DNA from: a virus | DNA length: 23,442 nucleotides | Strand: one strand, 5' to 3' | Virus record (IMG/VR): IMGVR_UViG_3300017727_000168 | Coordinates: 1-23,442 of that record | In this document: positions 2,212 to 22,400 of the stretch, piece after piece | How the letters are laid out: each line of letters begins with the position of its first letter | Position numbering within the stretch: position 1 is the first letter of the stretch | Notes under the pieces: generated by a model | Seen by the model: the letters and a program-made list of their open reading frames with translations, nothing else | What the model was told of the DNA's origin: nothing | Databases searched by the model: none | Made by a program: the position numbers and the translations under genes

Positions 2212-2877
2212 TTAGAGGCCAAATCCAGAAAAAGCGTTATCTATCGCTGCATCTGCGGCTCCTAGCGCTGTATCGCGCAATTCTCGAGGAACAGTGCTGG
2301 GCCCAGGACGAACCTGATCTATACGTTGAGTAGCATCATCCTGAGTTTGATCAATATATTTTTCTTTAAAGTCCTCATAAGTAAATTCTATGGTTACTTG
2401 TTGTATATCTGCTGCCCCGTTACTTGATTCAACTGCTTGCACCGATACAGGAAATGCATTTCGCAATTCTACTTCAAATACATGTCTATTATTATTATCA
2501 TTTTGATATAGATATATGTCTCTTTTATATACGCTATCATAATTTTTCTTAAAAGTATTTCTATCGATAATTAAATTAGTCCATCTATCAAATATTTCTT
2601 TAATAAAAAAATCATTAGTGAGATTAAATGTTATTGAAACATCTTCGTTAATAAATGACTGCGCAATTTTTATTTGTTGACGAGTGTAATTCGTCTCAAA
2701 TGTTTGCATCTGTCTTCCAGGGAAAGAACACTGTTCGCAAAAGATATTAAGATCTCTTGCTTTATCTACGCTTCCGCCAAAAGCAGCAAATGGTGGTATT
2801 ATTACTGCTTCGAATCGATTAGCGCGAGCAAATCCGTCTCTTCGTGATACAGCTGATTTTAGTTTATCGATTTCCAT
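2212..2877 (-). CDS. Tail-tube-fold protein, gp54-like tube initiator (or gp19-like)
   Basis: 221 residues. After a short N-terminal helix comes R-ANRFEAVIIPP, then a FCEQCSFPGRQ segment and the pattern of strands around ITFNLTNDFFIKEIFDRW, all typical of the T4 gp19/gp54 tail tube fold. This family forms the tube or its first ring on the hub. The position among baseplate and tape-measure genes favours gp54, the platform that starts the tube, although T4 gp54 is longer (320 residues). The ATG overlaps the stop of the upstream gene (TAATG), so translation is probably coupled. The C-terminal 35 residues are Ala/Asp-rich and look flexible. Confidence 0.6.
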   Translation of the reverse strand: MEIDKLKSAVSRRDGFARANRFEAVIIPPFAAFGGSVDKARDLNIFCEQCSFPGRQMQTFETNYTRQQIKIAQSFINEDVSITFNLTNDFFIKEIFDRWTNLIIDRNTFKKNYDSVYKRDIYLYQNDNNNRHVFEVELRNAFPVSVQAVESSNGAADIQQVTIEFTYEDFKEKYIDQTQDDATQRIDQVRPGPSTVPRELRDTALGAADAAIDNAFSGFGL

Positions 2878-3461
2878 TAGAGTTTAGATCTTGAGTCTTT
2901 CCATACCGCATCTTTACCTTTCTTAACAAACTGTTCAGATGGTAAAAAGATTGCAATCTCCCATTCGCTGGCAGATATTTCGGATATTTGTGATTTGATG
3001 TGTCTAGTTAAATAGTGTTTATAGAATGGTTTAAATGCAGAAAGTTTTGATGCTCCTTTTAAAAGGTCATACGACATTTTAAGACGAGTACTACTATTAT
3101 ATTTATCATTATTTGAGTACTCAAGAAGCCTATCAAAGAATCTAGCTCTTAATAATGGTGGAAGATAGTGTAAGTTTATTCCGTAAAATCCTCCAGGGGC
3201 TTTGTCGACCATAATAATAAGAGGAAATTTATCATAAAACGGCAGAGTCTTTTTGTTTTTAGGATCATACGCATACATAAACATACGACCAATTAACGGC
3301 TTTGCTACTGTTTTAGTTGCTTCATCTCTTAAAAGAGCTTTACGATTAACTGTTCTTATCTCAGCAACTTTTTCCCTGAACCATTTCAGAGACTGCTTAG
3401 TTCCACGTTTTATATCAGATCTAAACGCTGCTGCCTGTATTTGATCAAAGAGAGATGCCAT
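2877..3461 (-). CDS. Conserved T4-like structural protein, unassigned (194 aa)
   Basis: The frame is open back to 3524, but I place the start at ATG 3461 (MASLFDQIQAAAF). This removes the overlap with gp4 and puts the start five bases after an exact TATAAATA box. The protein is basic and contains YAYDPKNKKTLPFYDKFPLI and a GINLHYLPPLLRARFFDRLL segment. I remember similar proteins beside gp4 in marine T4-like phages, sometimes labelled as a DNA-end protector (gp2), but I cannot confirm that name from motifs. It has no signal peptide or membrane segment. Its stop overlaps the next start, so it forms one unit with the tube-like gene. Confidence 0.6.
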   Translation of the reverse strand: MASLFDQIQAAAFRSDIKRGTKQSLKWFREKVAEIRTVNRKALLRDEATKTVAKPLIGRMFMYAYDPKNKKTLPFYDKFPLIIMVDKAPGGFYGINLHYLPPLLRARFFDRLLEYSNNDKYNSSTRLKMSYDLLKGASKLSAFKPFYKHYLTRHIKSQISEISASEWEIAIFLPSEQFVKKGKDAVWKDSRSKL

Positions 3462-3466
3462 ATCCC

Positions 3467-3474
3467 TATTTATA
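3467..3474 (-). promoter_or_regulatory. Late promoter TATAAATA abutting the gp4 stop
   Basis: Minus strand: the gp4 stop TAG (3477-3475) is followed at once by TATAAATA, then GGGAT and ATG at 3461. T4 spacing puts the RNA start at or next to the ATG. No Shine-Dalgarno is possible in that distance. Confidence 0.75.
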
Positions 3475-3933
3475 CTATTTCTTTGGCTTCTTTGCACCAA
3501 GAAGTTTAATTCCAAGCTTCGCAAGTTCTATTTCTGTCCATATTACAAACTCCCATCCTCTATCAGCACAGTATGCTTCAGCAGTTTCCCACTTTGAGGT
3601 ATTTTTTATGTAGGACATTACCTCAGTAATATATCTTTTCGTCTTTCTCTTTGGTTCTTTCGGTGCCTCAGTTTGTTTTTTTGGCTTTATTTCAATGAGA
3701 TACGTCTTATCTTTTGTAACCATCTTAACATCCATAAAATACCGGTGAATTTTATTATCAGTCTTACAGCGGTATGGAATAATGGTTTCTTCTGATTGCC
3801 ATTTAATTACATCAGGATTCATATCCATAAATTTAAAGACTTGCCTTTCCCATAACGATCTGAATACTACTTTCGTAGGATCACCGTCGTATTTGTCCGG
3901 ATTCTTTACAGTATATCTTCCCTTGTATGTCAT
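3475..3933 (-). CDS. 4: Head completion protein gp4 (TnsA-like nuclease fold)
   Basis: 152 residues, close to T4 gp4 (150). The N-terminus KNPDKYDGDPTKVVFRSLWE is near-diagnostic for gp4. The family shares the TnsA-like restriction-endonuclease fold, and the matching acidic residues are visible: E29 (in SLWER), D68 (in FMDVK) and E81-x-K83 (in LIEIKPK). In T4, gp4 acts after packaging to complete the head before the tail joins. It is the first gene of the leftward arm, starting 21 bases from gp48 on the other strand. Upstream only a weak box is seen (TATAATAA, four bases before the ATG on the minus strand). No Shine-Dalgarno. Confidence 0.88.
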   Translation of the reverse strand: MTYKGRYTVKNPDKYDGDPTKVVFRSLWERQVFKFMDMNPDVIKWQSEETIIPYRCKTDNKIHRYFMDVKMVTKDKTYLIEIKPKKQTEAPKEPKRKTKRYITEVMSYIKNTSKWETAEAYCADRGWEFVIWTEIELAKLGIKLLGAKKPKK

Positions 3934-3937
3934 ATTT

Positions 3938-3945
3938 TTATTATA
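3938..3945 (-). promoter_or_regulatory. Weak late-promoter-like box before gp4
   Basis: Minus strand TATAATAA followed by AAAT and ATG at 3933. It departs from TATAAATA at two positions and is listed because the spacing matches the other late boxes. It overlaps the rightward box of gp48. Confidence 0.3.
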
Positions 3946-3949
3946 AATA
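3942..3949 (+). promoter_or_regulatory. Late promoter TATAAATA before gp48
   Basis: Exact box followed by G, ATTT and ATG at 3955: five bases between box and start. With T4 spacing the RNA would start on the A of the ATG. Confidence 0.75.
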
Positions 3950-3954
3950 GATTT

Positions 3955-4875
3955 ATGTTATTCTTTAACCCGTTCAGCTCAAATAAAAAAGATAAAATAG
4001 TTCAAAGCGGTACATCTGCACCCGACCAAACAATCTCTAGTATTGCTCCTCTTATTTATCCTCCAGAAATGAGAGGCGATGTCACTCGGCCGTGTATGGT
4101 ATTTACTGCTCATGAAAGAAAGCTTAACGGTCAAGTACAGGCGCATAGAATATGGTTTCCTGCTCCAGCGAATATAGCATTTGATGACGGAGCAGATTAC
4201 GGGCCAACTAACTTAGATTTTGGCGCTAATGTAGTTGCATCAAAATTTACTGGACAAAAGGGCTTTGGTGATCTTTTTAAAGAAATAACAAGCACAAATG
4301 CACGGACAGCAGCAACGCTCGCTTCAAAAGCACTGCCGGCTGATCTGCAAGCAGCTGCTAACTTAACAACGCGGCAAATAAACAATCCAAATACGAATAC
4401 AACCTTTAACAATAACACTGTAAGAGACTTTGAATTTGCTTTTAAAATGGTTGCACGTTCTCAATCAGAATCAGATCTTATTCGAAGAATACAATCGAAG
4501 TTTAGACATTTCATGTATGCTTCTCGTGGTTCTGAAGGCAGTACAATTACACTTGACTATCCTCCGGTATGGACAATTAAATTTATGAATATGGATTCTG
4601 GTACAGAAAATCCATTTATTCCTCGTATATATACTTCATATTGTACAAGCGTTAATACAAACTTTAATTCTACTGGAAATGTTTATTTTACAGATAATGC
4701 ACCGCTTGAGGTTGATTTACAAATATCGTTCCAAGAAACTCGTGCATTAAATAGACACGATATTGAATTTATGCAAAAAGATCAACTCGGAACAAGAGGA
4801 CTTGATGAAAACGGAATGGGCAGTCTTAATGCGGAGTTAACACAACCAGACCCTGCACCTACTAAAGGAGGTTAA
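3955..4875 (+). CDS. 48: Baseplate tail-tube cap gp48
   Basis: 306 residues (T4 gp48 about 364). The order of segments fits the gp48 family: a short hydrophobic N-terminus (MLFFNPFSS), then IYPPEMRGD about residue 35, a long Ala/Asn/Thr-rich middle (about 110-155), and a C-terminal tube-like domain with YPPVWTIKFMN and a late LQISFQETRALNRHDIE motif. In T4, gp48 sits on the hub and, with gp54, forms the platform for the tail tube. It is the first gene of the rightward arm, directly behind a late promoter. Its 3' end carries the Shine-Dalgarno of gp53. Confidence 0.75.
   Translation: MLFFNPFSSNKKDKIVQSGTSAPDQTISSIAPLIYPPEMRGDVTRPCMVFTAHERKLNGQVQAHRIWFPAPANIAFDDGADYGPTNLDFGANVVASKFTGQKGFGDLFKEITSTNARTAATLASKALPADLQAAANLTTRQINNPNTNTTFNNNTVRDFEFAFKMVARSQSESDLIRRIQSKFRHFMYASRGSEGSTITLDYPPVWTIKFMNMDSGTENPFIPRIYTSYCTSVNTNFNSTGNVYFTDNAPLEVDLQISFQETRALNRHDIEFMQKDQLGTRGLDENGMGSLNAELTQPDPAPTKGG
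4864..4871 (+). promoter_or_regulatory. Strong Shine-Dalgarno of gp53
   Basis: AAAGGAGG within the last codons of gp48, six bases before ATG 4878. It is the only strong ribosome binding site I see at a gene start in this window. Confidence 0.85.
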
Positions 4876-4877
4876 TT

Positions 4878-6059
4878 ATGTCATTCTTCTCGCAATTTCC
4901 AACAATAAAGTACGATATTAATGCTGATGGTGTTAAAACTGATCTTACCGACATGTTTCGGCATGTTGATGTAAAAGAACAGCTTCTTAACAACGTAGGA
5001 ACTTATACGTTCTATGAAATACTTGAAGGAGAAAGACCTGATATTGTATCTAATCGACTATACGGCACACCAGATTATTATTGGACATTCTTTGTCTTAA
5101 ACGAAAATCTTAAAAACGGATTAAATGATTGGCCAAAATCGTATAGACAGTTTGAGTTAATGATCGAACAAGATTATTCAGATTATTCTACCCTTGTTTT
5201 TATACCTCGTCAATATCCGGTCGCGCGTAAATACGAAAACGGTTTTGAAATGTTAAACTATTTTGGCGGATTAGATATAGCAAATGATAATATTCGTATA
5301 TCAACTTTTGATGATAACCCAGACGGAACTAAAGTTCAAGCTGAAATACTAAAATTTGATGACAATCGCTTTCAACTTTGGGTTTATAATATTAATAATA
5401 TAGGAAGATTTTCTAGGAATAGGCGCTGGAATATTGAATACATTGATAATCCATATACAGATGGACAAGAATATTTAGAGTTTGAGGCTGAAAGAACAGA
5501 ATGGGCAAAAACAGCTCTTGAGTGGACCAGAAAAAATCAAACAACTATTTACTATTCATTTATAAGAGATAGCCAAAGTAGACAGGGTTTAATTACTGGA
5601 AGTGATGCATATTACAACTTTTTCTTAACAAGCTATCTAGAAAATATTCAATTTGTTTCCCATCGTTTTTACGAAAGTTCCTATAATGCTCCGTCTTATT
5701 TCCTTGATAATGAAAACGAGGGTGATAGAGCTACAGCGTTTGATGCATATTCACAGGTGTTCAGTAAAGAAGATGTCGAGCTCGAAGCAGGATATTCTAG
5801 AGGAGATATTGATATTAATATTTCATCGACTCGAGATGATGGTTTTGATCAAAGTGAAATCGCTCAATATAATTCAATTAGTGCTCAAAGAAAGTATATA
5901 CCAAGTTTTGTCGAATCTTATTACACCCAACAGGCAGATTATATATCGATCAAGGATGATCTTTCAGAAAAAACTTTTGCAGCAAGAAAAATTCGAATAA
6001 TACGACCAGAACATATAGTCGAATTTGCTGATAAATATAAAGAATACCTATTAAAGTAA
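4878..6059 (+). CDS. 53: Baseplate wedge protein gp53 (extended)
   Basis: 393 residues, about twice T4 gp53 (196). The N-terminal 120 residues match the family: FFSQFPTIKY, a DMFRHV segment, then GERPDIVSNRLYGTPDYYWT, a typical gp53 motif (GTPDYYWTFFVLN). In T4, gp53 links neighbouring wedges and is among the last wedge proteins added. The remaining roughly 270 residues are rich in Tyr, Asp and Asn; near the C-terminus is RKIRIIRPEHIVEFADKYKE, which looks like a conserved ending, so the extra part is probably an internal insertion rather than a tail. The start is fixed by a strong Shine-Dalgarno; the gene ends directly before the gp27 ATG. Confidence 0.8.
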   Translation: MSFFSQFPTIKYDINADGVKTDLTDMFRHVDVKEQLLNNVGTYTFYEILEGERPDIVSNRLYGTPDYYWTFFVLNENLKNGLNDWPKSYRQFELMIEQDYSDYSTLVFIPRQYPVARKYENGFEMLNYFGGLDIANDNIRISTFDDNPDGTKVQAEILKFDDNRFQLWVYNINNIGRFSRNRRWNIEYIDNPYTDGQEYLEFEAERTEWAKTALEWTRKNQTTIYYSFIRDSQSRQGLITGSDAYYNFFLTSYLENIQFVSHRFYESSYNAPSYFLDNENEGDRATAFDAYSQVFSKEDVELEAGYSRGDIDINISSTRDDGFDQSEIAQYNSISAQRKYIPSFVESYYTQQADYISIKDDLSEKTFAARKIRIIRPEHIVEFADKYKEYLLK

Positions 6060-7439
6060 ATGGCAGCTCAACGTACAAATTTTGGGGAGAAAATATCTTT
6101 AACCCCAGGATCATATAATATTGATAGAATTACACTGACTACACATTCTGGTGACGTTTTCTATATAGAAAACATGGTGGTTAAATTGTCAATAACCGAG
6201 TCTCTCTATTCTCCTAATCTTATCGCACAAATTGACATAAAGGATACCGCGGATTTCTTTGAGAGTTCACCACTGATTGGTCAAGAAAAAATAAAAATAG
6301 AAATATCATCTAGACCAAAGGGCTGGGACGGAGCAATGACAAAAGCAGCCGTCAGAAAATCATCTGAAAAAAATATCGATTTGAATTTTGTTGTTACTGA
6401 ATATCCTCTTTATGGAAGTAGTAGAACTGAACATACAAACGTTTATAGTATTGCCTGTGTATCAGATCACGCATATTTATCTCGGCTATCTAAAATATCT
6501 CGGTCGTTTACTAATACAACCGATGTCGAAATTAAAAAAATTATTACCCAAGATCTTGGGTTTAGTGATTTTGAAGTAAAAGGAATAGTAGATTCAAGAA
6601 TGAAAGGTGTTATGCGATGGCAAACTCCTCTTGAAGCTGCTGAATGGTTGCGCCAAAAGACATATGACGAAGCCTTTTCTCCATTCTTTCTTTATCATTC
6701 TTTAGATAACGTAATTCGACTATCATCTTTGCATGAATTAATGACTGCAGAAAGCTATCACACATATTTTGATGAACGTGAATTTAATTTTGAACCATAT
6801 AGCGAACAAGATTACAATCAAAGAGCTTCTCGTATTCTTGATGTTGCATCAGATTTAAAATTAGGAAAGGTTTATCAAGGTGCAAACGGCGGATGGGCAT
6901 CAGAAAATAACTATTTAGATTATTCATATAAGACATATACTAAATATGATTATAACTATGAGAATGATTTTAAACAGGATTTAACGTTAAATAAAAAAAC
7001 TACATTATCAACTCAGTTCGATGTGAATGGAGAAAAATTAAACCTAATGCCAAAGTCGCATCTTGAACATGTTTCAGTTAATAACTTATCATTCGGAGAA
7101 GATAATAAAAACTATAATAAACTAAAAGAAAAAACTCAAGGGAAAACAAAGGCGATTGAAGAAGCGCTTGAAACTATTTCTCATGATATAAAACTTTTTG
7201 GTGATCTTGAACTAAACCCTGGAACAGTTATTAATTTAAAATTTCCAAAAGCTGTAGATCCAGCAATAATGAAAAAGTTGTTAGCAAAAATGAAACACTC
7301 TCCATCAGGCTCTTTAGATTTATATGATCAACACTTATCAGGAAGACATTTAATTACTTCTGTAAATCACACGTTTGAAGATGGAGAATATTTCTCAGAG
7401 GTACGGGTAAAGAAAGACTCATTCTCCTTTGAACTATAA
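6060..7439 (+). CDS. 27: Baseplate central hub gp27
   Basis: 459 residues (T4 gp27 391). The N-terminal part shows the strand pattern of hub proteins (VFYIENMVVKLSITESLYSP, then IGQEKIKIEI). In T4, three gp27 copies form a ring between the gp5 spike and the tail tube. The end (SGRHLITSVNHTFEDGEYFS) is a typical closing motif of phage hub proteins: a loop saying 'ability to return, then strand'. Its location just before gp5 agrees with a gp27-gp5 complex. The start ATG follows the gp53 stop with no gap (TAAATG) and has no Shine-Dalgarno, so coupled translation is likely. The stop TAA lies inside the late promoter of gp5. Confidence 0.75.
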   Translation: MAAQRTNFGEKISLTPGSYNIDRITLTTHSGDVFYIENMVVKLSITESLYSPNLIAQIDIKDTADFFESSPLIGQEKIKIEISSRPKGWDGAMTKAAVRKSSEKNIDLNFVVTEYPLYGSSRTEHTNVYSIACVSDHAYLSRLSKISRSFTNTTDVEIKKIITQDLGFSDFEVKGIVDSRMKGVMRWQTPLEAAEWLRQKTYDEAFSPFFLYHSLDNVIRLSSLHELMTAESYHTYFDEREFNFEPYSEQDYNQRASRILDVASDLKLGKVYQGANGGWASENNYLDYSYKTYTKYDYNYENDFKQDLTLNKKTTLSTQFDVNGEKLNLMPKSHLEHVSVNNLSFGEDNKNYNKLKEKTQGKTKAIEEALETISHDIKLFGDLELNPGTVINLKFPKAVDPAIMKKLLAKMKHSPSGSLDLYDQHLSGRHLITSVNHTFEDGEYFSEVRVKKDSFSFEL

Positions 7440-7442
7440 ATA
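7435..7442 (+). promoter_or_regulatory. Late promoter TATAAATA overlapping the gp27 stop
   Basis: The gp27 terminal codons CTA TAA form the first part of the box. The box is followed by GATC and ATG 7447, four bases away: the shortest spacing in the window. Confidence 0.7.
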
Positions 7443-7446
7443 GATC

Positions 7447-8496
7447 ATGGACCCAGAAAATTTTATTAATAATGGTGGTGGCTTTGCATGGTTCACAGGT
7501 GTGATCGAAGACATCGATGATCCAATGGAAATGGGTAGATATCGTGTACGGTGTTATGGATATCACAATGCAGATAAAGCCGAACAAAAAGGTATACCTA
7601 CTGAAGATTTACCATGGGCAATGACAATGTTGCCTGTTACATCAGCATCGATGTCAGGTGTGGGTCAATCTGCAACAGGTCTATTACGAGGAACATGGGT
7701 TATTGGCTTCTTTCGAGATGGCATTAATGCCCAAGATCCGGTTATTATGGGATCTATTCCATCTATAACCTCTCGGCCAGGAGATTACAGCAAAGGATTT
7801 ACTGATCCAACTGAGAGATATCCAAGTGAAGAAGCGTTACACCTTGATAAACCTGATACACCAGTCTCTGCACAGGTTATAGAAGAAAAATATAAACAAG
7901 GATTTAGTTATACAGAAAAGAAATCTTTAAGAGATATGTATGATCCAAAAATAACTATAGCTCAAAAAGTAAGAGCTCCTGAAAAAGCAGGAACTTTACC
8001 GGCAGCATGGATATTTCCAGCTATTGATGATGTAATGACTCCCACATATCCTCAAAATCATGTGACTGCTTATGAACGAGCAGACGATACAGTTGAAGCT
8101 GGGCACATTGTTGAGTATGATGTAACTCCAGGAAAAGAAAGAATATCTACTATCCACCGTACTGGAACATACACTGAAGTTACTCCAATCGGCGATAAAA
8201 CAGAAGTAATCGTTGGCAAAAACTATAGGGTTGTTGCGAAAGGAGAAAATGTTTATATCGAAGGTGGGTGTAATCTTACAATTGATGGAGGATGCAATAC
8301 TAAAATTATAGGTGACTGGAATGTTCAAGTCACTGGTAATAAGTTCGAGCATATTGGTGGTAAACATATCCATAGAGTGCAGTTAGATCAGACTGTTAAT
8401 ATTGGAACAACTATTACCGAGACAAGCGGTGGAACATGTACAGAAGCATACGGCGGAAATCAGGTAACTACTGCACCGAATATCTTCCTTAATTAG
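7447..8496 (+). CDS. 5: Baseplate hub spike gp5, lysozyme-free
   Basis: 349 residues against 575 in T4. Residues 11-105 form the OB-fold domain (FTGVIEDIDDPMEMGRYRVR, LPWAMTMLP, then GTWVIGFFRDG and QDPVIMGSI). A linker of about 120 residues follows. Residues 254-325 show nine octapeptide units of the T4 gp5C kind, for example VIVGKNYR, YIEGGCNL, TIDGGCNT and KIIGDWNV, which fold into the trimeric beta-helix needle that punctures the outer membrane. No catalytic lysozyme segment is seen between OB domain and needle. This matches my knowledge of marine T4-like phages, where peptidoglycan cutting must come from elsewhere. Its start lies four bases after a late promoter and has no Shine-Dalgarno. 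Confidence 0.85.
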   Translation: MDPENFINNGGGFAWFTGVIEDIDDPMEMGRYRVRCYGYHNADKAEQKGIPTEDLPWAMTMLPVTSASMSGVGQSATGLLRGTWVIGFFRDGINAQDPVIMGSIPSITSRPGDYSKGFTDPTERYPSEEALHLDKPDTPVSAQVIEEKYKQGFSYTEKKSLRDMYDPKITIAQKVRAPEKAGTLPAAWIFPAIDDVMTPTYPQNHVTAYERADDTVEAGHIVEYDVTPGKERISTIHRTGTYTEVTPIGDKTEVIVGKNYRVVAKGENVYIEGGCNLTIDGGCNTKIIGDWNVQVTGNKFEHIGGKHIHRVQLDQTVNIGTTITETSGGTCTEAYGGNQVTTAPNIFLN

Positions 8497-8504
8497 TATA
8501 AATA
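8497..8504 (+). promoter_or_regulatory. Late promoter TATAAATA before gp25
   Basis: Begins directly after the gp5 stop TAG (8494-8496) and is followed by GACTAT and ATG 8511. The stop-box arrangement TAGTATAAATAG is identical to that at the gp4 end on the other strand. Confidence 0.75.
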
Positions 8505-8510
8505 GACTAT

Positions 8511-8942
8511 ATGTCGAAGGCACTATCAGATATTAATCCAGCACAAGGAAAAGTTGCACAAACGCTGTATAGAGATTTTCCTATGTTTTTTAGCGGTGTC
8601 CATCCGATATTAAAAGATATATCAGGAATAAAAGATTTAGAAGCAGTCAAACACGCAGTTAAGAATTTAATTCTAACTAACTTTAATGAACGTCCATTTC
8701 ATCCAGAAATTGGTTCAGATGTAACTGCTCTGTTATTTGAACCAGCTGATAACTTTACAGCAAAAGCAATTGAAGAAGAAATCTTATCGGTTTTAAAAAG
8801 ATTTGAGCCTCGCACCACTGATCATACCGTTCAGGTAACAGATAATTCAGAAAGAAACTCATACGAAATAACAATTGGTTTTAATGTTATATTTTCTCCA
8901 AGAAGAGAAGAAATTAATTTTTACTTACAACGCTTACGATAA
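8511..8942 (+). CDS. 25: Baseplate wedge protein gp25
   Basis: 143 residues (T4 gp25 132). Contains the family motif FNERPFHPEIGSDV at about 58-71 and the EPR motif at 99-101 (KRFEPRTT), a hallmark of the gp25/gpW-like wedge family. In contractile tails gp25 sits at the inner ring and connects the wedge to the first sheath ring. The gene directly follows a late promoter. Its stop overlaps the gp6 start (TAATG), which implies coupled synthesis of two proteins that bind each other in T4. Confidence 0.9.
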   Translation: MSKALSDINPAQGKVAQTLYRDFPMFFSGVHPILKDISGIKDLEAVKHAVKNLILTNFNERPFHPEIGSDVTALLFEPADNFTAKAIEEEILSVLKRFEPRTTDHTVQVTDNSERNSYEITIGFNVIFSPRREEINFYLQRLR

Positions 8943-10873: not shown

Positions 10874-10884
10874 AATTAAAAATT

Positions 10885-13800
10885 ATGTCATATCATTCTT
10901 CTTCAGGCAGTTATTCATCGGGTAGTACTAGTTCAACGACGTCAACATCGAGTAGTACTAGTTCAACGCCGACGACATCAGGTACTAGTAATTACGTGGC
11001 GAATGCGGGTAACACGATTACTACATCACCTGCATCTTCATCTACTGCCGCTGGTTCAGTCTACTTTTTAGAGGGACAAAGTAATAGCGGTAATACTGCC
11101 GGATTAGTTGGATATTTCTATCCACTTTACACTGACTTATCCTTAATTAATGGATTATGGCACGTGCATACGTTCGAAGGACTAGATGAAACATTTTACA
11201 TGCCTGAGGGCGAAACAAATCATGCTGTTCCTAGCCCTCCAAGAGCGAATAGTTATGGCGGTTTATCATACGAAAAATATGCAACATATAATGTTAATAA
11301 TACTGTAGTTTCATATACAAATTTCTCGACAGAGATATCTCAACCAGTTATTTCAGTTGCTGCAAGTAGGAGAGATTTTGATCCATTTGGCAATAATGCA
11401 TCAAATACAGAATCTCTTCGTGTTGAAGAACTTATTCCTGAACAGCTAAGAGCTAGCTCAGAAAGCTTTGTAGCATTAATTAAAGATTATTACGAGCATC
11501 TTAATACCGTAGGTCTTCCTACATATGAAACAAATCGTATTATTGATGAACACGATATTGATAAGGTATCAGAGAAATATTTAGATGGAATTCAAGGAGA
11601 AATTGCTAAAAATATTCCTGATTCTTCAGTGATGGATCGAGTGTCTTTGTATAAAAAAATTGTACAATACTATACACTTAAGGGTTCAGAAGAAAGTATT
11701 ACAACGTTTTTCCGTCTCTTCTTTGATGCAATTATAGAGGTATCCTATCCAAGAGAAAGATTGTTTGAAGCTTCTTCTGGAGAGTGGGTTAAAAAGAATG
11801 ACGATTTTACTCAAACTATTACAGCATCTACTACTCTTGAAACCTTAGGAATAGATTATAGTCGTCTATTATTTCGAATACAAGATGATAATAATGTAAC
11901 ACTAGGACAGGCAACGGTTCGTAGTATTGAAACAACAGTTCGTTATGCCGATGCCCCTAAGATTTCTGGATTATCTATTGATTTAGATACAAAGAAAAAT
12001 TTAAATGCTAGTAATGAAACGTGGGACTCTACTTTATTTAAAAAACCTGTTCGAGGTAGGTTTATGCAAGGTGCTCGCTTTAATGACCTTCAAAAATTAA
12101 TAAAGCTCGACGGCAAAAGATCCTACTTAGATTTTGGACTTATAGGTAATAATCCAAATATTCCTCTTGACACAGAAGAACACACATTTGTTATTCGTTC
12201 ATTCCCCAAATTCAGTAAAGAAAACACAAACCTTCAACCTCTATTTTCTTTATCAGAAAATTATTCAGATTTAAATTCGCACGAGCTATTTTTTAATAAT
12301 ACAACAAATAAAATTGGTAGATCATTTAGCGATATAAAAGAGCCTACTATTTCTATTGACCCGAGCGATAACGAGTCGCTTATATTTTCTAATTTTATTG
12401 ATTCAAGCACAGTTGCTTTAACTTCGATACGAGATCAAGACAAATACGATCATATGCTTGATTTCATATCACCCGTAGGTAGAACATATAACGGAAGGTG
12501 GAAAAAAAGTCTTATTCAGTTTAATGGAAAAGATGTTTACTTACATGAAATCGATCCAGTATTGAATCTTATTACTAATGATGATTTAAAATATTATCAA
12601 ACAGATGGAGATACATTTAACGGGCCAGATAATTTAAAAATTGGTCAAACAATTTACGGAGAATCTTTAAATGATTTTAGTGGAGTAAATGCCATAAGCG
12701 AAGATGGCTTTGTTGTTGCTATTGGTGCATCACTAAGCGATGATACTGGAATTAATTCAGGTAGCGTACGAGTATATGAATTAGCTAATGCCCAAGTTAA
12801 TGGTCTTGTAGATGACGACACTACATTAACTATTGATAATATATCCTCGGACTCCTTTCCAGCTGGCCTTGAGGTTAATATGGTTGTATCAGGAGGTGGA
12901 CTACCTGAGCTCGGTGCAGATAACGCAGTTAGAATTACTTCTATAGTTTCTGGAGGAACAACTGCAGATACAACTGCGATAGTACAAGTCAATCGCAATG
13001 TTACATTAAACGATAATGCAAATTTAAGAATCGGGACTAATGCAAATATATGGAGGCAACTTGGTCAAGATATTAATGGCGATAGTGCTGGAGATATTTT
13101 AGGAAGTGCGCTTAGTTTAAACGCTATTGGAAATACTATTGCAATCGGTGCCCCAAGAAACCGAGGTGCCGATTTAGTAGTTGATAATTTGTCGTATCAA
13201 AATTATCTTGGAGAAGTAAAAATATACGAGCTAAATTCAAGTCAACAATGGGTATTAAAAGGAAGTAATATTGTTGGCACTGATGAAAATACTAGAATAG
13301 GAGCAAGTGTTAGCTTAAGTGGTGATGGTAATCGAGTAGCATTTGGATCAGGAGCAAATCCAAATATAGACTATGATCTCGGAACTGAAGAGAGTATGGG
13401 TCTTCTTTTACAAGATGATGATATCGGTACTGTATACGATATCGAACTTGCTCCTGATGATATTACTAGTTTTACTCATCAAACTTATGTATATACAAGG
13501 GAATCTGCTTTAGAAAATGATAGACCTCGTTATAGTGGATCATCTGGAAGCACAACTTTTAGTATTAGGTGGAACGGTTCTAATTGGGTGAGAAAAATAC
13601 AAGGTTCAGGTGGAGGTGTACCAGAACACAATCTACACCCAAACGACACAACTCATCCATGGTTAAAACTTAATGGCGATATTATTCCTGCATTTACGGA
13701 ATTTCTTCCAACTTCTGTAGCACTTTCATTTGATTCAGATGGAACAACCGTTACTATTCAGGGCATCAACTTTAATACTGCATCCACTCGAATAAAAGTA

Positions 13801-16800
13801 CGTGGCATAAGTAATCAGTATAACGGAATATTTGATATTGATACTATTAGTTCGACGACTATTACCTATTTAAGAACTGGTCCTTTAATTTCAACTTCTA
13901 ATGATGTATCACCAGATTTTACAATTGAGATTGGTATACACAGAAATCCAATAAGCGAAATAGACGGAGGTAAACATATCGGTATTAGAGTTCCTGATAG
14001 AATTTCAAATGATACTGAGATTTATGAATGGAAAGAAGCTGATCCTGTTAATAACGCAGGTGTATTTAGTTGGATACAAATAGGAGATAACATTGTTTCA
14101 GAAAATAACGATCCATTAGCAGGTACGAATGTAGAATTAAGTGATGATGGAAGAACCGCTATGGTTGGAACACACATAATAAATGATGCAGGAATTGCTG
14201 AATTATGCATAAGAGTTTATTATAACGAAGAAGAAACTCTTACATGGAAACAAATTGGAGTCGACCACCTATTTGCTCCAGCTGCTGATAAGAGTGAGAT
14301 AGCAATGAGTTTAAGCAACGATGGATCAATATTTGCTGTTGGTATTGTTGGAGATGGAACTGATGAAGGCTTTAAAGGACAAGTTGAAACTTATCAACTA
14401 AGAACAACTGTAAATACTCAGGAATATATAAAGTTCGGACAAACAATTGAAGGTGACGAAGTAGGCGATGAATGTGGTAAAAGCGTTGACTTAAATACAA
14501 ATGGAAATATTATTGTAATCGGATCTCCTGGAAATGAAGATAACGGCAATGATGCAGGACAAGCCAGAGTGTTTTCATATAATAGAACAATATCAACATG
14601 GGAAAAAGTTGGTTCACCGATTGAAGGTTTCGGTGCTTTAGATAATGCTGGTGAAAGCGTAAGTATTAATGGTACAGGTACTCGTGTTACTATAGCATCT
14701 CCAGGAAATGATGGTGCTGGACAAAATAGAGGTAAAGTAGAAACATTTCAAATTCCTATTGATATCACTATAACTTCATTTGCGCTTTCTGAAAAAAATC
14801 TTGACGATGGTAGATTAAGGTGGACTATTAAATACGACGGAAATATAGTATACTATACCGACTGGTATACTACTGAACAATTCGCTAATTTAAATCCGTA
14901 CGGTATAAGAACAAAATGGAATATAGCAAATAAACAAGGAGATAAAAACTTCCCTGTTCTACCTCATTGTGAATACATTAAACGAAATAACGATCATCTT
15001 TTTAATTTACATAATAGAGGTTATCTTTCTATATTTTATAAACATAACGGCGAATTTCAACCGAGCCAAAATATTACAATAGGCGATACTGATGTTTATG
15101 ACGAAGAAAGACTGTGGGATATTTTGGATTATGCTGTTGACGGACCACATCTTATTTTATTAGATCGTCCTGTAAACGGCGCATCTCGCCTTGTTATATT
15201 TAAACTAGATCAATATAATCGTTATAATTTTTATCAAACAGTAGAGCTCAATCTTCCAGCTACACACTTAGGATCTGCAGATTTTGCACATGTTAAAATT
15301 AATGCATCGCAAATTATAGTTGGTACTCATACTTTTAATAACGTTGATATTGCACAAATCATTCAAGTGTACACTAAGGATGCGGATAACTTGTGGCCAA
15401 ATGATCGTTATACGACGTTGCCTTCTGCTGTTAGCACAGATGTTGAAGCAGATCTTCTTTTTAATATTGGAGAAAACGTAACTACTTCAAAATGGACATC
15501 TACGAACGGTCTAGTAGATTTAAAATCAGATTCTATAGTTGAAAACGCATCGAAAGATGACGGAATTTCCGTGTTTGTTCCTCGATCAACAATCGGTTCT
15601 GGACTTGGTTTTGATATTGAAGATAAGTTCTCTTTATCATTAAGATTTAAATCTGGTAGTTTATACGGAGATATTAATAATATACTAACTATAGGTAATG
15701 TTACCCTTCGAATAGCTACTGATCCTCTAACTAATAAGAGAACACTGCAGGTTGTTTCGCGAGAATATGGTAAAAGCGATGATCCCATATTTTTAAATAA
15801 GATAGACACTAATATTATTTTAGATGATAATAATATGTTAGAAATATTTAGTGATGAATATTTTGATAGCGAAATAAAAGAAAAAGAATGGAATAACTTA
15901 ATACTTGAATTTCATGTAAAAGACAACGTAATCGTTGGTTTACGTTATTCTATTAATGGATTTAAAAGATCAAAATCATTCAATACAGACCTATCTTGGA
16001 TACAAGCTTTTTTTGGTAATTTAATTCCAAGATTTAGGGTGCCTGTTCACGGAATTACAGCTGCGTCTCAGATTAAGCTTTACGATAATATCGCATTTTC
16101 GCATATCGCCTTTTATAATAAAAAACTTAGTTATCTTGAATTCGATTTATTACAAAGAAACTTATCGATCAACTATACTGATACTGTTACAACTGGAATC
16201 AATTCTTTACTTGACGGTGGACGATTTGAATTAAGCGAAACTGGAACAGTTATTGCAAAAGTATCTGCATATGGTATTCATATATGGGAAAGAAGGTCAA
16301 TAGATACTTGGAGAAGCTGGTACAATACAGTAGAATCTATAACAGGCGCAGAATCAAACTTCATTACACAAAATGGAGCAAGATCACACTCATTTAAATT
16401 CTTTGGTAATGATTTACTTTTAGTAAGTGGCGGATTAAATAATGCTAAACAGTTTGTAGATCAATTTAATTTATCTGATGTTTATAATAAGAAAGAACAC
16501 AATTCTCGCTCTGTATTATACTATCTTAGGAGTCAATATTCAACATCCGCAAGCGGATGGAGATCGATTAAAACTATACGTCCTACGATACCATTCATTC
16601 AATCTGATTCAACAGATTTTAAAGTTGGCTTAAACTATGGAGCAAATATTGCGGTAGATAATGATACAGATTCATTTGCGGTTTCTTTAGAACCAAATAG
16701 TATTAATGCAGTATTAAATGGACCAAATTCTACTTCAAATAGTTCTGCAAAATCTACAACGGTTAAGTATGATATTTGGAGAAAACTTGCGAATAATAGA

Positions 16801-19476
16801 ATACAATCTTTTCCACTTAATCAACCATCAGAAGGATTTCCTACTGTAGACTCCTACTTTAGGAGATTAAATAACAGCGCAGTTGTAAAACTTTTAGATA
16901 AGCCTCTATCCTATAATGCTATTCTTTCATTCCCGTATATTATACATTCTACATCTACAGGAAACCCGTTGATAGAATATGAGTATGATGCTGCCCGAAA
17001 TCCTATAGGATATCATAAAACAGCTAATAATTATAAGCCTGACTTTGTTATTTCTACTCCGCCTGGTCCTGAAATATATTTAGATACAGAGACGGTTAAT
17101 ATAAATGAATATAACGTAGTAGTTGTAAAAGGAAAGGCAGATAGATATAACGGCTATGTTAAAATTTCTCATAATGGTTCTGATTTTGATCAAGGCACAA
17201 TAATCGAGGGAAATACTCTTCAGCACTTAACTATATCTCCAAACTCTGAATTTATTATTGGTCGTAAAGACACTAGTTTCTTCCATGGAGATATTAGTCA
17301 TGCGCAGTATTACACGAAAGCAATTTCTTCTACGTCGCTTGCACAGATTATAACTTACCTAAATAACAATGTTAAAAAGTTCTATAAAATTATATTTGAT
17401 GATTTAGTTGGAACAACTGCAGGAGGTACTAAAATTGTTTCTTCGGCTGACTCAACAAAACCATTCGAGTTTGGTGATTTAGATGGTCATACTTTTAATT
17501 CATTCCTATACTACGATACTCCAGAATATAAAATAGATACTTACGATAAAGATGGTAATTTAGTTGAAAACCCAAATACAAAAATTCGTGTTACTGCTAA
17601 TTACGGCAATAATAAGGCTCCAGAAGAAATCATTTATTGGGGAGATGGAAGATTAGACAAAGTAAACAACAGAGCTACATTAGCTCATACATACACACTC
17701 AAATATCTCGGAGAATATAGTAATAAAAAGGGAAGAGTATCTTCGGTCAATCGATTACAAGACAGTGATTATTGGCAGAAATTTTCTTATGTTATTCGTA
17801 GCGGATTAAAGGTAACAGACTGGGAAAATTCTTTCTTAAGTCTAGTTCATCCAGCAGGATTAAAATTCTTTGCGAGTGTTATTCTATTGGTTATAAGAGA
17901 TAATCATTGGTTCGGTCCCAAATCTATAATATTCGACCCAGCCACTCGTCAAAATGTAAGTCTTCTTCGTGTAGAAGATGAATTCTTAGCACCATTCAGA
18001 ACTAAAACACCTCTGGAAGATATGCGGTGGCTCGAAGCTCTTACAGCACCGAGTGAAAGTGGTGGTTATCATATGCCAATGTTCCAGCCTGGTTGGTTAC
18101 AAGGAGATATACGTACACGAGAATTTATATTTGAAGCTGGTCTATGGACTAAATTAGCAAGGTCTGTTCCTGGAAACGAAGCTGCGGCCAAATATACCTT
18201 TGAATATTACGAACAAGATCAAGATGATGGAGATGCTGAATTCAGAATAACTGGTAATATTCTCGGCAGTTGGGAAACAGAAGAAGCGGTGAGTGCTGCT
18301 GCTGCAACCAATACTACAACTATTCAAATTAAAAATATCGCAAGTCTCTTTAATTTAGCAGTTGGAATGGTTTTAGAAGGATCAAGTATTCCTGCAGGAA
18401 CAACTATTGCTTCAATAACATCAGAAAGTACAAGTACAGCTACTATCGAAGCTTCACAAGCAGTATCACTTTCTGAAGATGATGTATTTACGATTTATTC
18501 AAACATAGTAGGAAGTATAGTTCAACAAAAAGATGAGAATGATGTTGTTATTCGAAGAGGTATTATAGCTTCGTTCGCTAAAGATGGAAATGATTATACC
18601 GGATTAATTAAAATAATTGGAGGATTTCCAGTATTCATAGATGGACAAATGTCTACTGAAGATCAAAATAGCGCAGACACCGCCCCTCTTAGATCAGCAA
18701 ATATAGTAACCTTTCCTAGGAAAAAGAAGGCGGAAATTGTCAATGTCTACGGAGACGAGGAACAAGATGCCGCATATCTATTGCAAGATAGATCAACTAC
18801 GAACTTCAATTCAGAAATGTTTTTGAGAGCGGTTCTTACCACGTTTAAATATGTTATACCTGCATTAGTACCACAAAAGGAATTTACTAAAAGAGATTAT
18901 GAACAGAATCTAAAGTTTAAAGACCGTGCAGACATTAGTTCGTATCTTCCAATAACTATTAAAGATGCACTTGCTCAGCGAGATGTCTTTATGAATATCG
19001 GTGCTACTATCACGAAGATAAATCAGCTTGATACTGAAGCTGGCGCCGGCTTCTATATTGAAAGTGACACATCAGATCCTCTCAATGATGAATTACTTAT
19101 CGATGATCATATAACTAATTGGTGGAATGATCCAGAAAATAGTCAAGATGTATCTGCACCAGTTGAATTTTCTATAGATAGTTATACACAAATTAATAGC
19201 TCAGTTGGTCAAATACAAAGTGCTGATACTGTTTATCAAAATAAAAATATTGATGGAGAATACATCAGAATTCAAGGAATAGTAATAAGTCATGTTGGAG
19301 ACTCCACTGATAGAAAGATAAAAATTGGTTGGAACGGAGCGTATAATTTTACTACCCAAACAGAACTATCATCAAATCCTGAAGCAACACAGTTATTTGA
19401 AACTGGAGTAATATTTACACTTAATGAAAGTAATAATAACCAAGAAGATATAGCTAACGTCACCCTTAATACATAA
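10885..19476 (+). CDS. 7: Giant baseplate wedge protein, gp7-like, with propeller and LamG-like modules
   Basis: 2863 residues; T4 gp7 has 1032. Residues 1-60 are Ser/Thr-rich. Residues 170-310 (SESFVALIKDYYEHL, YLDGIQGEIAKNIP, YYTLKGSEESITTFFRLFFD) and 2170-2340 (YWGDG, RVSSVNRLQDSDYWQKFSYV, DWENSFLSLVHPAGLKFFAS) are what I know from wedge proteins of marine T4-like phages, and the location after gp6 fits gp7. Between them lie: a LamG-like piece (about 408-560), seven FG-GAP-like blades (585-1292), further beta-rich sequence (1295-1520), a LamG-like domain (1520-1765) and another LamG-like piece (2050-2167). The start has no Shine-Dalgarno (ATTAAAAATT before ATG), 11 bases after gp6. A gp7/gp8 fusion cannot be excluded, since no separate gp8 is seen. 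Confidence 0.65.
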   Translation: MSYHSSSGSYSSGSTSSTTSTSSSTSSTPTTSGTSNYVANAGNTITTSPASSSTAAGSVYFLEGQSNSGNTAGLVGYFYPLYTDLSLINGLWHVHTFEGLDETFYMPEGETNHAVPSPPRANSYGGLSYEKYATYNVNNTVVSYTNFSTEISQPVISVAASRRDFDPFGNNASNTESLRVEELIPEQLRASSESFVALIKDYYEHLNTVGLPTYETNRIIDEHDIDKVSEKYLDGIQGEIAKNIPDSSVMDRVSLYKKIVQYYTLKGSEESITTFFRLFFDAIIEVSYPRERLFEASSGEWVKKNDDFTQTITASTTLETLGIDYSRLLFRIQDDNNVTLGQATVRSIETTVRYADAPKISGLSIDLDTKKNLNASNETWDSTLFKKPVRGRFMQGARFNDLQKLIKLDGKRSYLDFGLIGNNPNIPLDTEEHTFVIRSFPKFSKENTNLQPLFSLSENYSDLNSHELFFNNTTNKIGRSFSDIKEPTISIDPSDNESLIFSNFIDSSTVALTSIRDQDKYDHMLDFISPVGRTYNGRWKKSLIQFNGKDVYLHEIDPVLNLITNDDLKYYQTDGDTFNGPDNLKIGQTIYGESLNDFSGVNAISEDGFVVAIGASLSDDTGINSGSVRVYELANAQVNGLVDDDTTLTIDNISSDSFPAGLEVNMVVSGGGLPELGADNAVRITSIVSGGTTADTTAIVQVNRNVTLNDNANLRIGTNANIWRQLGQDINGDSAGDILGSALSLNAIGNTIAIGAPRNRGADLVVDNLSYQNYLGEVKIYELNSSQQWVLKGSNIVGTDENTRIGASVSLSGDGNRVAFGSGANPNIDYDLGTEESMGLLLQDDDIGTVYDIELAPDDITSFTHQTYVYTRESALENDRPRYSGSSGSTTFSIRWNGSNWVRKIQGSGGGVPEHNLHPNDTTHPWLKLNGDIIPAFTEFLPTSVALSFDSDGTTVTIQGINFNTASTRIKVRGISNQYNGIFDIDTISSTTITYLRTGPLISTSNDVSPDFTIEIGIHRNPISEIDGGKHIGIRVPDRISNDTEIYEWKEADPVNNAGVFSWIQIGDNIVSENNDPLAGTNVELSDDGRTAMVGTHIINDAGIAELCIRVYYNEEETLTWKQIGVDHLFAPAADKSEIAMSLSNDGSIFAVGIVGDGTDEGFKGQVETYQLRTTVNTQEYIKFGQTIEGDEVGDECGKSVDLNTNGNIIVIGSPGNEDNGNDAGQARVFSYNRTISTWEKVGSPIEGFGALDNAGESVSINGTGTRVTIASPGNDGAGQNRGKVETFQIPIDITITSFALSEKNLDDGRLRWTIKYDGNIVYYTDWYTTEQFANLNPYGIRTKWNIANKQGDKNFPVLPHCEYIKRNNDHLFNLHNRGYLSIFYKHNGEFQPSQNITIGDTDVYDEERLWDILDYAVDGPHLILLDRPVNGASRLVIFKLDQYNRYNFYQTVELNLPATHLGSADFAHVKINASQIIVGTHTFNNVDIAQIIQVYTKDADNLWPNDRYTTLPSAVSTDVEADLLFNIGENVTTSKWTSTNGLVDLKSDSIVENASKDDGISVFVPRSTIGSGLGFDIEDKFSLSLRFKSGSLYGDINNILTIGNVTLRIATDPLTNKRTLQVVSREYGKSDDPIFLNKIDTNIILDDNNMLEIFSDEYFDSEIKEKEWNNLILEFHVKDNVIVGLRYSINGFKRSKSFNTDLSWIQAFFGNLIPRFRVPVHGITAASQIKLYDNIAFSHIAFYNKKLSYLEFDLLQRNLSINYTDTVTTGINSLLDGGRFELSETGTVIAKVSAYGIHIWERRSIDTWRSWYNTVESITGAESNFITQNGARSHSFKFFGNDLLLVSGGLNNAKQFVDQFNLSDVYNKKEHNSRSVLYYLRSQYSTSASGWRSIKTIRPTIPFIQSDSTDFKVGLNYGANIAVDNDTDSFAVSLEPNSINAVLNGPNSTSNSSAKSTTVKYDIWRKLANNRIQSFPLNQPSEGFPTVDSYFRRLNNSAVVKLLDKPLSYNAILSFPYIIHSTSTGNPLIEYEYDAARNPIGYHKTANNYKPDFVISTPPGPEIYLDTETVNINEYNVVVVKGKADRYNGYVKISHNGSDFDQGTIIEGNTLQHLTISPNSEFIIGRKDTSFFHGDISHAQYYTKAISSTSLAQIITYLNNNVKKFYKIIFDDLVGTTAGGTKIVSSADSTKPFEFGDLDGHTFNSFLYYDTPEYKIDTYDKDGNLVENPNTKIRVTANYGNNKAPEEIIYWGDGRLDKVNNRATLAHTYTLKYLGEYSNKKGRVSSVNRLQDSDYWQKFSYVIRSGLKVTDWENSFLSLVHPAGLKFFASVILLVIRDNHWFGPKSIIFDPATRQNVSLLRVEDEFLAPFRTKTPLEDMRWLEALTAPSESGGYHMPMFQPGWLQGDIRTREFIFEAGLWTKLARSVPGNEAAAKYTFEYYEQDQDDGDAEFRITGNILGSWETEEAVSAAAATNTTTIQIKNIASLFNLAVGMVLEGSSIPAGTTIASITSESTSTATIEASQAVSLSEDDVFTIYSNIVGSIVQQKDENDVVIRRGIIASFAKDGNDYTGLIKIIGGFPVFIDGQMSTEDQNSADTAPLRSANIVTFPRKKKAEIVNVYGDEEQDAAYLLQDRSTTNFNSEMFLRAVLTTFKYVIPALVPQKEFTKRDYEQNLKFKDRADISSYLPITIKDALAQRDVFMNIGATITKINQLDTEAGAGFYIESDTSDPLNDELLIDDHITNWWNDPENSQDVSAPVEFSIDSYTQINSSVGQIQSADTVYQNKNIDGEYIRIQGIVISHVGDSTDRKIKIGWNGAYNFTTQTELSSNPEATQLFETGVIFTLNESNNNQEDIANVTLNT
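10922..10968 (+). repeat. 17-base direct repeat in the Ser/Thr-rich start of the gp7-like gene
   Basis: GTAGTACTAGTTCAACG occurs at 10922-10938 and 10952-10968, exactly 30 bases apart and therefore in frame. The region encodes only Ser, Thr and Pro. Copy-number changes would keep the frame. Confidence 0.85.
12640..14760 (+). repeat. Seven FG-GAP-like blade repeats in the gp7-like protein
   Basis: Protein-level repeat, about 50 residues per unit, with the pattern (I/F/L)G--I-G-----(F/G)-SV-L---G--(V/I)AIG(A/S)P-----G-V-(V/I)Y-L. Units begin near residues 586, 722, 789, 1061, 1111, 1181 and 1232. Examples of core motifs are GNTIAIGAP, GNIIVIGSPGN and TRVTIASPGND. Seven units would close one beta-propeller. 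Two insertions interrupt it: residues 643-716 and about 829-1061. Confidence 0.6.
15448..16180 (+). other. LamG/concanavalin-like domain in the gp7-like protein
   Basis: Residues about 1520-1765 show the usual LamG layout: DIEDKFSLSLRFKSG, then ILTIGNVTLRI, then EWNNLILEFHVKDN, SINGFKRSKSF and finally YDNIAFSHIAFYNKKLSYLE. Such domains are beta sandwiches that often bind carbohydrate; the ligand here is unknown. Confidence 0.55.
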
Positions 19477-19481
19477 AAATA

Positions 19482-19489
19482 TATAAATA
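19482..19489 (+). promoter_or_regulatory. Late promoter TATAAATA before the tail fibre gene
   Basis: Lies in the 19-base gap after the gp7-like stop, followed by GAATTA and ATG 19496. It gives the fibre gene its own late transcript. Confidence 0.75.
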
Positions 19490-19495
19490 GAATTA

Positions 19496-22400
19496 ATGAG
19501 TACAAAAATTTCAAATTTACCAGAGTTAGGTGTTAATGCAAGCGGTGGGATCGATAGAAGTATTATCGACGGAAATGAATTTTTTCCGATAATCGACTTT
19601 GATGCAAATAACAATTTACAGACGTTTAAAATTAAATTAGATACACTGTTTTTAAGTGGTCAAGGATTTGAGAAAGTAACAGACATTGCTATAGCTGAAG
19701 ATAGTAATAATCAGTTTAAATTAATATATACAAAGGAAGATAACAGCACAGATGAGATAACAATTGACAAGTATGTAATTCAAAACGGTGATGTAAAATT
19801 CGAGCACATTGATACTACTGATTATTTTACTTCTGATGTAGGAAATCTGATACAAAGTGATAGTAGTAGTAATGTTAAATTAGCTACTGCTGGTGCAATT
19901 GATACACACATTACTCACAGATTATATGGTACGAATGAGTATGATGATGCAATTAAAGAATATTTTGGTGATAGCACGACTTCACGCACTGTTGGTACAC
20001 ACATATTAAAAGATTTTAGACTAAATTCAGAGGTTGCACAAGATTTTCTAGATCTGTTAGATGATGTTAGACCTTCGCTAGATACATTTAAGAAGATCGA
20101 AGAACAGTTTGATACGATTGATTATAGTGATAAAATTGGAACAAGTCAAGTAAACACTGATCAGTTTGTAATTCTTGAACCAGGTGGTAATTTAAGTAGT
20201 CGTTTAAATATTAAACCACTTGCAATTGGTACTGGTCTTCTTAACAGCAATGCGGTTATCACTAATAAGATTAAAGATGGAGCAATCACTACTGCTAAGA
20301 TTGATACTGGTGCAATTACTGCAACTAAACTAAATGTTGATTCGGTTATAACAGTTAAGATTAAAGATGAAGCTGTAACTCCTGCTAAACTTTCTGCTGG
20401 TGCACCTCAATGGGATACTGATAATGTAAATATTCTTAATGACTTAGTTGTTACTCACGATGTTAATGTTAATAATAATATTAAATCTTTTGGTACTGAT
20501 ATTAGTTTATTCAATTCTAATGTCACAAATAGATCGACTGGTAATGGTAGAGCGATCTCTCACGATCTCGGAGATACACTAGTTATTAATAAATTTAACG
20601 ATTACATTGGAGGTGTACATATTAAGGGATTAATAATGGCGCCTGATCAGCATGTAGGTAGAATAATTACAAGTACTGATAACACATTAGTAACAAAGGC
20701 ATATGTAGATCGCGCTGACGTTCTTCTTAATCCTATTGCAGAAGATAAAATTCAAGATGATGCGATTATACATCGTCATATGACTCCTGATTCGGTTGAC
20801 ACTGAGGAATTATTTGATTTCTGTGTAACAAGTCCTAAAGTTGAAGTTATTGGCCCACATTGGGATGATACCGGTACAGTTAAAATACTTAATAAGCTAG
20901 ATATTAATGGCCACGAGCTAACTGTTGGTGACATCGGTGGTACATCAACAACTAACGAAACTCGATTAATACTTCGTGGTCCAGAAACTACAGATAATGA
21001 TATTCGACTACGTAGAGGAATTGCCACTGTTGCCCGAGGAAAGGGTGTTAACGGCAATTTCATTCTTAACAATTCAGGTACTGGAGATCTTATATTTAGT
21101 AGAAGTGGTCAAGAAAGTTTTAGATTAACTCCTACTGCAGCAAGGTTACCTAAGACTCTTCAAATTGCAGGAGGTTCTTCAGCAACTATTAATGGAACAA
21201 ACTTTTCTAATATACCATTACTTATTGGAAATATTAATGCTGGAATTGGAATTGATAACAATGAAATAGTACAAAAGGGAGGAAATCTTAATATCGGTGT
21301 TGCTGATTCAAATCGAAATATCTTTTTCAGGTCCGGCAGTCTTTTAAGAGCAACTATTCATGGTGATAGCGGAGATATTCAAGCTACTGGAGATCTTATC
21401 ACAAATACAGGTATAGTAAGACCAGTAAGAGATGATTCAAGACTCAATCTTCGTGGTGGTACAACAAATGCAAATGGAGCGAATATCGATTTGTATGGAG
21501 CTAGTAATGGAGCTAACTCAAATCAGGCAATTTATGATGCAGATATACACCGCTTTAGGGTATCAAATGGTAGTGTAACTGCTCTTGAAATTGATGCTAA
21601 AACTAGGAGAATTAAACTATTTGCTGAAGGTACACAACCAAACCATTTGGTTACGAAGAAGTATGTTGATGATGAAGTATTTAAACCTATTCAAAGTTTA
21701 GATATCATTACTTCGAGAATGGAAAGCGGATTTTACCAAACATCGAATGCAATATTTGGTAATGGATGGCCAGAAACAACTAACGGATATTATCATCTAC
21801 TCACAAATACTCATAGTAACACAACAAATTATAATGCTTTACAGTTTGCTGCTTCATATACTAATCAAGAAGTTTACTTTAGATCAACAAATAATAATGG
21901 TAATCAAGCATGGAGCAAATTGTGGCATACAAACAATCAAGGAGCTGGTTCTGGATTAGATGCTGATTTACTTGATGGAAAAGAAGCAGCTGCCTTTTCT
22001 TTAATTAGTCATCTACACGATGATAGATATAGAAAACTTACTACTTTAATTGGATATAACGATCTTACGGTTGGAGCACCTTCTTGGGACACAACTAATG
22101 TTAATATTCATAATAATTTAGATGTTAGTTTGAGCGCAACTATAGATGGAAGTCTAAGAGTTGGTGGTCAAATAACCCAAACCGGACCTGACTTTAAGAT
22201 ATTCAATCAAACTCGTGCCGGAAGCGGTAACACACATGCAGGTAGAGCACTTGTACATGGAGTAAACGATGCATTAAATATTAATTATGCTAAAGATTAT
22301 ACTGGTGGTGTACTAATTCACGGAAATATAATTGCCCGTGATCAATCAATGGCGTTCATTAAGGATAATTCTAGAGCGTTAGCCACACAAGAATACGTTT

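Follow-up and report, generated by a model that had tools for sequence, protein, structure and literature searches.

Late transcription in bacteriophage T4 is a textbook system whose messages are leadered and carry Shine-Dalgarno (SD) sequences. Leaderless mRNAs of bacteria and phages (e.g., that of lambda cI from PRM) have their 5' end within a base or two of the AUG. To our knowledge, the leaderless cases described in phages are single genes or belong to other polymerase systems. According to published T4 work, the T4 late transcription machinery is formed by gp55, gp33, and gp45, and the late promoter box spans positions -13 to -6 (PMC2988020). A survey of pelagimyophages reported that a search for late promoters was unsuccessful (PMC7029224); in the present analysis, both HTVC008M and Mosig have such promoters, and some nearly abut the start codon. 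No published report of leaderless late mRNAs in T4-like phages was found, most subscription papers lying beyond the reach of the search.

The DNA analyzed here (the window) is an IMG/VR virus fragment of 23,442 bases from a T4-like phage and covers a block of tail and neck genes. By gp6, the nearest cultured phages are the methylophage Melnitz (37%), the pelagiphages Mosig and HTVC008M (34-35%), and cyanophages (~32%). The minus strand carries a tail-fibre-like ORF (2..1264; PHROG 3201, E 3e-6), the baseplate hub gene gp26 (1452..2153; PHROG 150, E 9e-63), a tail-tube-like gene, the DNA end protector gp2 (2877..3461, with its ATG at 3461; PHROG 429, E 5e-58), and gp4. On the plus strand are a baseplate tail tube cap gene of gp48/54 type (3955..4875; PHROG 230, E 7.5e-37), gp53, a tail protein, the baseplate hub gp5 (OB part, 7447..8496; PHROG 430, E 4e-78), the baseplate wedge subunit gp25 (8511..8942; PHROG 261, E 4e-40), gp6, and two very large baseplate/fibre ORFs. 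A single ORF of 2863 residues occupies 10885-19476 after gp6, at the gp7 position; its matches to baseplate or virion structural families are confined to the N-terminal portion and a short segment at the C terminus. A large tail-fibre-like ORF (ORF19496, 19496..23440, with stretches matching the tail fibre families PHROG 892 and 28766) runs past the window end.

The late promoters of the window resemble those of T4 in the 8-bp box TATAAATA, in the absence of a -35 element, in the late structural genes that they precede, and in the gp55 homologue present in relatives. However, T4 boxes lie 13-42 bases from the ATG (mostly 13-30) and 20/22 of the genes have an SD, whereas in the window the distance is 4-6 bases and none of these genes has one.

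Late promoter boxes in the window

All five copies of TATAAATAG listed in the preliminary description were recovered where it had placed them, at 3474-3466 on the minus strand and from 3942, 7435, 8497, and 19482 on the plus strand, and the gaps of 5, 5, 4, 6, and 6 bases that it gave are correct (gaps are measured to ATG only, GTG and TTG starts not being scored). In each, TATAAATA is followed by G. The boxes stand ahead of gp2 (3467..3474, minus), the gp48-like gene (3942..3949, plus), gp5 (7435..7442, plus, overlapping the stop codon of the gene upstream), gp25 (8497..8504, plus), and ORF19496 (19482..19489, plus). The variant AATAAATAG, which it had located at 1277 on the minus strand and 5 bases from an ATG, is also there; this box, AATAAATA followed by G (1270..1277), precedes the tail-fibre-like ORF. 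Five exact boxes and one A-variant therefore adjoin starts, in keeping with a T4-type TATAAATA that takes T or A at the first base. The genes behind them are of late virion type (gp2, gp48, gp5, gp25, and tail fibres), and all six begin with AUG and are predicted to be leaderless. A sixth exact TATAAATA was missing from the earlier list. It lies on the minus strand (2196..2203), 42 bases ahead of gp26, a late gene with an ordinary leader that provides a contrast within the window: given this distance, not every late promoter of the window is leaderless.

The number of exact TATAAATA copies is not above chance (6, against a mean of 5.5 in dinucleotide shuffles of this AT-rich window). It is the placement of the box, not its number, that is non-random: in the window, an ORF-opening ATG follows 4-6 bases after 5/6 copies of TATAAATA, as against 2/339 (~1%) for the 55 remaining orderings of its letters.

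The base directly after the start-adjacent boxes is G in six of six cases (window 3466, 3950, 7443, 8505, 19490, and 1269). Among gap-5 gp2 promoters, 66% likewise have G in this place, versus 23% of T4 leadered promoters, a hint that the recognition motif of this group may be longer. The divergent genes gp4 (minus) and gp48 (plus) have their start codons only 21 bp apart (3934-3954); the 3942 box lies inside this gap, and the gp48-like gene has no upstream cistron. In some relatives (L032, L036, and L037), a shared TATTTATAAATA between gp4 and gp48 forms a late box on either strand. Within the gp26 leader (2154-2195, minus), the stretch TATAACTGAATGAATAAC...AAAATT is kept in close relatives.

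Spacing in relatives and the predicted start of transcription

The comparison covered T4, KVP40, S-PM2, Syn9, P-SSM2, Cr30, phiM12, C48C1, HTVC008M, Mosig, Melnitz, and seven related contigs. A tally of box-to-ATG spacing, suggested in the preliminary description, gave a gap of 4-6 for 34/66 boxes in the seven related contigs. ORF-opening boxes at this distance numbered 0/32 in T4 and zero in KVP40, S-PM2, Syn9, and P-SSM2. One T4 site with a gap of 5 (131165-131180, minus) was discarded, as it opens no ORF of at least 40 codons and fits no annotated gene start. The cyanophages S-PM2, Syn9, and P-SSM2 share with the window a box, NATAAATA, and late virion genes behind it, but 0/3 have a box at 4-7 bases from the start. 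HTVC008M has five exact boxes at a gap of 5, plus several NATAAATA boxes at the same gap. These precede gp2, gp25, gp48, CsgF, an oxygenase, a tape-measure-like gene, a baseplate gene, and others, and for gp25 and gp48 the gap is 5 at the database-annotated starts of the orthologues.

Relatives of gp2 were fetched from public viral contigs, first as 133 distinct upstream regions and then as a fuller set of 145. Among the 133, the gap is sharply peaked at 5 with a shoulder at 6-9, and a small group with longer leaders lies at 25-28; none falls at 10-24, making the distribution bimodal. The box is 3-9 bases from the ATG in 123/145 upstream regions and exactly 5 bases in 88/145. A gap-5 gp2 box is present in the cultured pelagiphages HTVC008M and Mosig and in the methylophage Melnitz, and so persists down to ~33% gp2 protein identity. 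For gp5 the gap is 4 in 10/11 box-bearing relatives, for gp25 it is 6 in 16/21, for ORF19496 it is 6 in all seven relatives compared, and for the tail-fibre-like ORF 2..1264 it is 5 also in L006 and L024. Since gp5 keeps 4, and gp25 and ORF19496 keep 6, each in its own relatives, the distance is characteristic of the individual gene.

Given the T4 box at -13 to -6, the +1 position is the sixth base after the box, and a gap of 5 would put it on the A of the AUG. Leadered promoters have a purine at position 6 after the box in 77% of cases in T4, 86% in the three pelagi-/methylophages, and 79% in cyanophages, and C there in only 0-5%; in the gap-5 gp2 set this position is the A of the ATG. The base before the ATG is a pyrimidine in 71/74 gap-5 gp2 genes versus ~49% in neighbouring genes with no box. 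A pyrimidine-purine step is the usual context of bacterial transcription starts. The purine at position 6 and the pyrimidine before it favour the A of the AUG as the start point but do not prove it. At a gap of 6, the predicted start would leave zero or one extra base before the AUG. At the gap of 4 in gp5, the standard T4 spacing would place +1 on the U of the AUG, and the start would have to shift one base back.

The route suggested by these observations would begin with a late RNA polymerase composed of the core enzyme of the host and three phage proteins, gp55, gp33, and the clamp gp45, which would recognize TATAAATA(G), open the DNA, and start about six bases after the box, on the A of the ATG or within one base of it. 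The product would be a leaderless mRNA with a 5'-AUG, on which the ribosome would start without an SD. The late genes served in this way would be a conserved subset that mostly encodes low-copy virion parts. The sheath and capsid genes keep leaders, usually with an SD. A search with a protein query found gp55 homologues in HTVC008M, Mosig, and the window-like contig G031, whose metagenome sample also yielded a contig with a 100% identical gp5; the Melnitz annotation includes gp55, gp33, and gp45. None was found within the 23-kb window fragment, and the positions of gp55, gp33, and gp45 lie outside it.

The alternative that survives best, although we consider it unlikely, is that the boxes are real late promoters but the genes are translated mainly from read-through transcripts, in which case the AT-rich box would act as unstructured sequence ahead of the start, and any leaderless mRNAs would be minor or untranslated. 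Window gp5, gp25, and ORF19496 do lie close behind late genes of the same strand, and gp2 behind gp4; moreover, many genes of the lineage with no box start well without an SD, with A-rich sequence ahead of the start codon (67% have A at -3 and -6). On the other hand, window gp48 and HTVC008M gp2 are first in divergent units, with 21-26 bp between starts and no upstream cistron from which to read through. Read-through also leaves unexplained the fixed gap of 4, 5, or 6 per gene across deep divergence, as well as the pyrimidine before the ATG.

We give very little credence to the view that the box-adjacent ATGs are misannotated and that the true starts lie downstream, behind ordinary leaders. 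The start calls in the window are computational, which leaves room for it, but the first internal Met comes only at residue 60 in gp2, 39 in gp48, 27 in gp5, and 25 in gp25. The alignment that the preliminary description had recommended showed the N termini of gp2, gp5, gp25, and ORF19496 to be kept in relatives, and the independent database annotation of HTVC008M uses equivalent starts. In the window, the box-adjacent ATGs open their ORFs; no alternative start codon lies upstream for gp48, gp5, gp25, ORF19496, or the fibre ORF, and gp2 has GTG or TTG alternatives only. Least probable of all, and already contradicted, is placement by chance in an AT-rich genome or by shared ancestry with no function, which agrees with the unexceptional number of TATAAATA copies but not with their placement relative to permuted motifs, nor with gp2 upstream regions in which the spacer letters vary and box and distance are kept (123/145, at 33-100% protein identity).

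T4-type late promoters with their start point on the start codon, giving leaderless late mRNAs, are the best reading of these data, and we regard it as highly probable. The prediction made from the window alone holds strongly in the comparative data (placement, conservation, and position 6). The actual RNA 5' ends and leaderless translation are what we infer from the DNA.

Shine-Dalgarno sequences, hosts, and bS21

The preliminary description had also relied on the lack of an SD in the box-adjacent genes of the window, in contrast with gp53. The lack itself is real but uninformative, because nearly all genes of this lineage are without an SD: in the window and seven close contigs, SD matches occur at the shuffled background in all genes, box or not. 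The SD-like AAAGGAGG before gp53 (4864..4871, plus), inside the C-terminal codons of gp48, is not conserved within the lineage, including close relatives. We therefore rejected the contrast with gp53 as evidence for leaderless messages. An SD match is found in 2/123 gp2 genes with a box at 3-9 bases; part of this absence follows from the box itself, because one that ends 4-6 bases before the ATG leaves no room. The comparison is informative in HTVC008M, Mosig, and Melnitz because these phages use SDs, which are found in 33/37 leadered late genes versus 2/17 box-adjacent genes. At 63 loci, a gp2 promoter with a gap of 5-6 stands alongside SD-rich neighbours.

SD-free initiation is known from Flavobacterium johnsoniae, in which A at -3 and -6 matters for initiation and leaders exceed 10 nt in 87% of transcripts with probable promoters (PMC6847099). 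The window lineage is similar in its background SD frequency and in the A at -3 and -6 of its no-box genes. It differs in that F. johnsoniae transcripts are mostly leadered, and predicted leaderless gp2 promoters occur here also in SD-using phages. From this pattern, a host among the Bacteroidota is possible for the window lineage; genome-bin matches to relatives of the window carry mixed host labels, and most of these bins use SDs.

A phage-encoded ribosomal protein bS21 (PF01165) was detected in HTVC008M (L178), Mosig (L179), Melnitz (L180), and contigs L341 and L342, all SD-using marine phages whose gp2 promoter is predicted to be leaderless. The genomes of T4, KVP40, the cyanophages, phiM12, Cr30, and C48C1 were searched as well and gave no match. 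A strict association of bS21 with leaderless promoters was ruled out by a 121-kb contig that has a gap-5 gp2 promoter and no bS21.

Leader type and gene identity

Counted over all loci fetched, a box at 3-9 bases precedes gp2 in 123/145 cases, gp25 in 20/21, gp48 in 27/45, gp13 in 38/66, gp20 in 18/78, and gp5 in 11/35. For the sheath gene gp18 the count is 0/69; its box lies 46-110 bases upstream in 65, and of the 68 genes whose box is at least 10 bases away, 61 have an SD. The capsid gene gp23 has 0/42, with an SD in 37, and gp19 has 1/150. Taken together, gp18 and gp23 have the leaderless arrangement in 0/111 cases versus 237/390 for gp2, gp5, gp13, gp20, gp25, and gp48 (Fisher p 1e-37, the sequences sharing descent and therefore not being independent events). 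Several contigs hold both kinds; in L396, gp13 and gp20 have the leaderless arrangement beside gp18, gp19, and gp23 with an SD. In other lineages, gp13 and gp20 are often leadered.

The gp18 leader of 55-75 nt contains, between the late box and the SD, a conserved motif of roughly CCKTATTATG(N)3-6CTTATMATT, present for example in L385, L450, L470, L501, and L508, whose gp18 proteins are only 40-75% alike. Alignment folding predicted no structure in this leader, and the motif may bind a protein or belong to a regulatory leader.

In T4, the group of gp18, gp23, and gp19 comprises the most abundant virion proteins, whereas gp2, gp25, gp48, gp13, gp20, and gp5 occur in a few to roughly a dozen copies each. 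Because leader type follows the gene and, with it, these copy numbers, we tentatively propose, at somewhat less than even chances, that in marine T4-like phages a single class of late promoter yields two kinds of message: leaderless ones for low-copy parts and leadered ones, usually with an SD, for sheath and capsid. Stoichiometry would then be written in the distance from promoter to AUG rather than in promoter strength. That leader type sets dosage is what we infer with copy numbers taken from T4, not from these phages.

The arrangement is a real and widely conserved departure from the T4 pattern and a variant of a known promoter class. The suggestion of a different way of starting late translation holds as a contrast with T4, but not wholesale, given the 42-base gap of gp26 and the leadered, SD-bearing sheath and capsid genes of relatives. 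As in lambda cI, the predicted mRNA start is at or near the AUG and SD-free; in contrast to such cases, a phage-specific promoter class is so placed at a large number of virion genes that are orthologous. Many marine T4 relatives appear to set a T4-type promoter directly on start codons. This offers a testable case of leaderless translation in essential phage genes, in cultured phage-host pairs in which leadered genes with this same promoter serve as internal controls. The division between leaderless minor parts and leadered sheath and capsid suggests a simple way of setting the amounts of virion parts.
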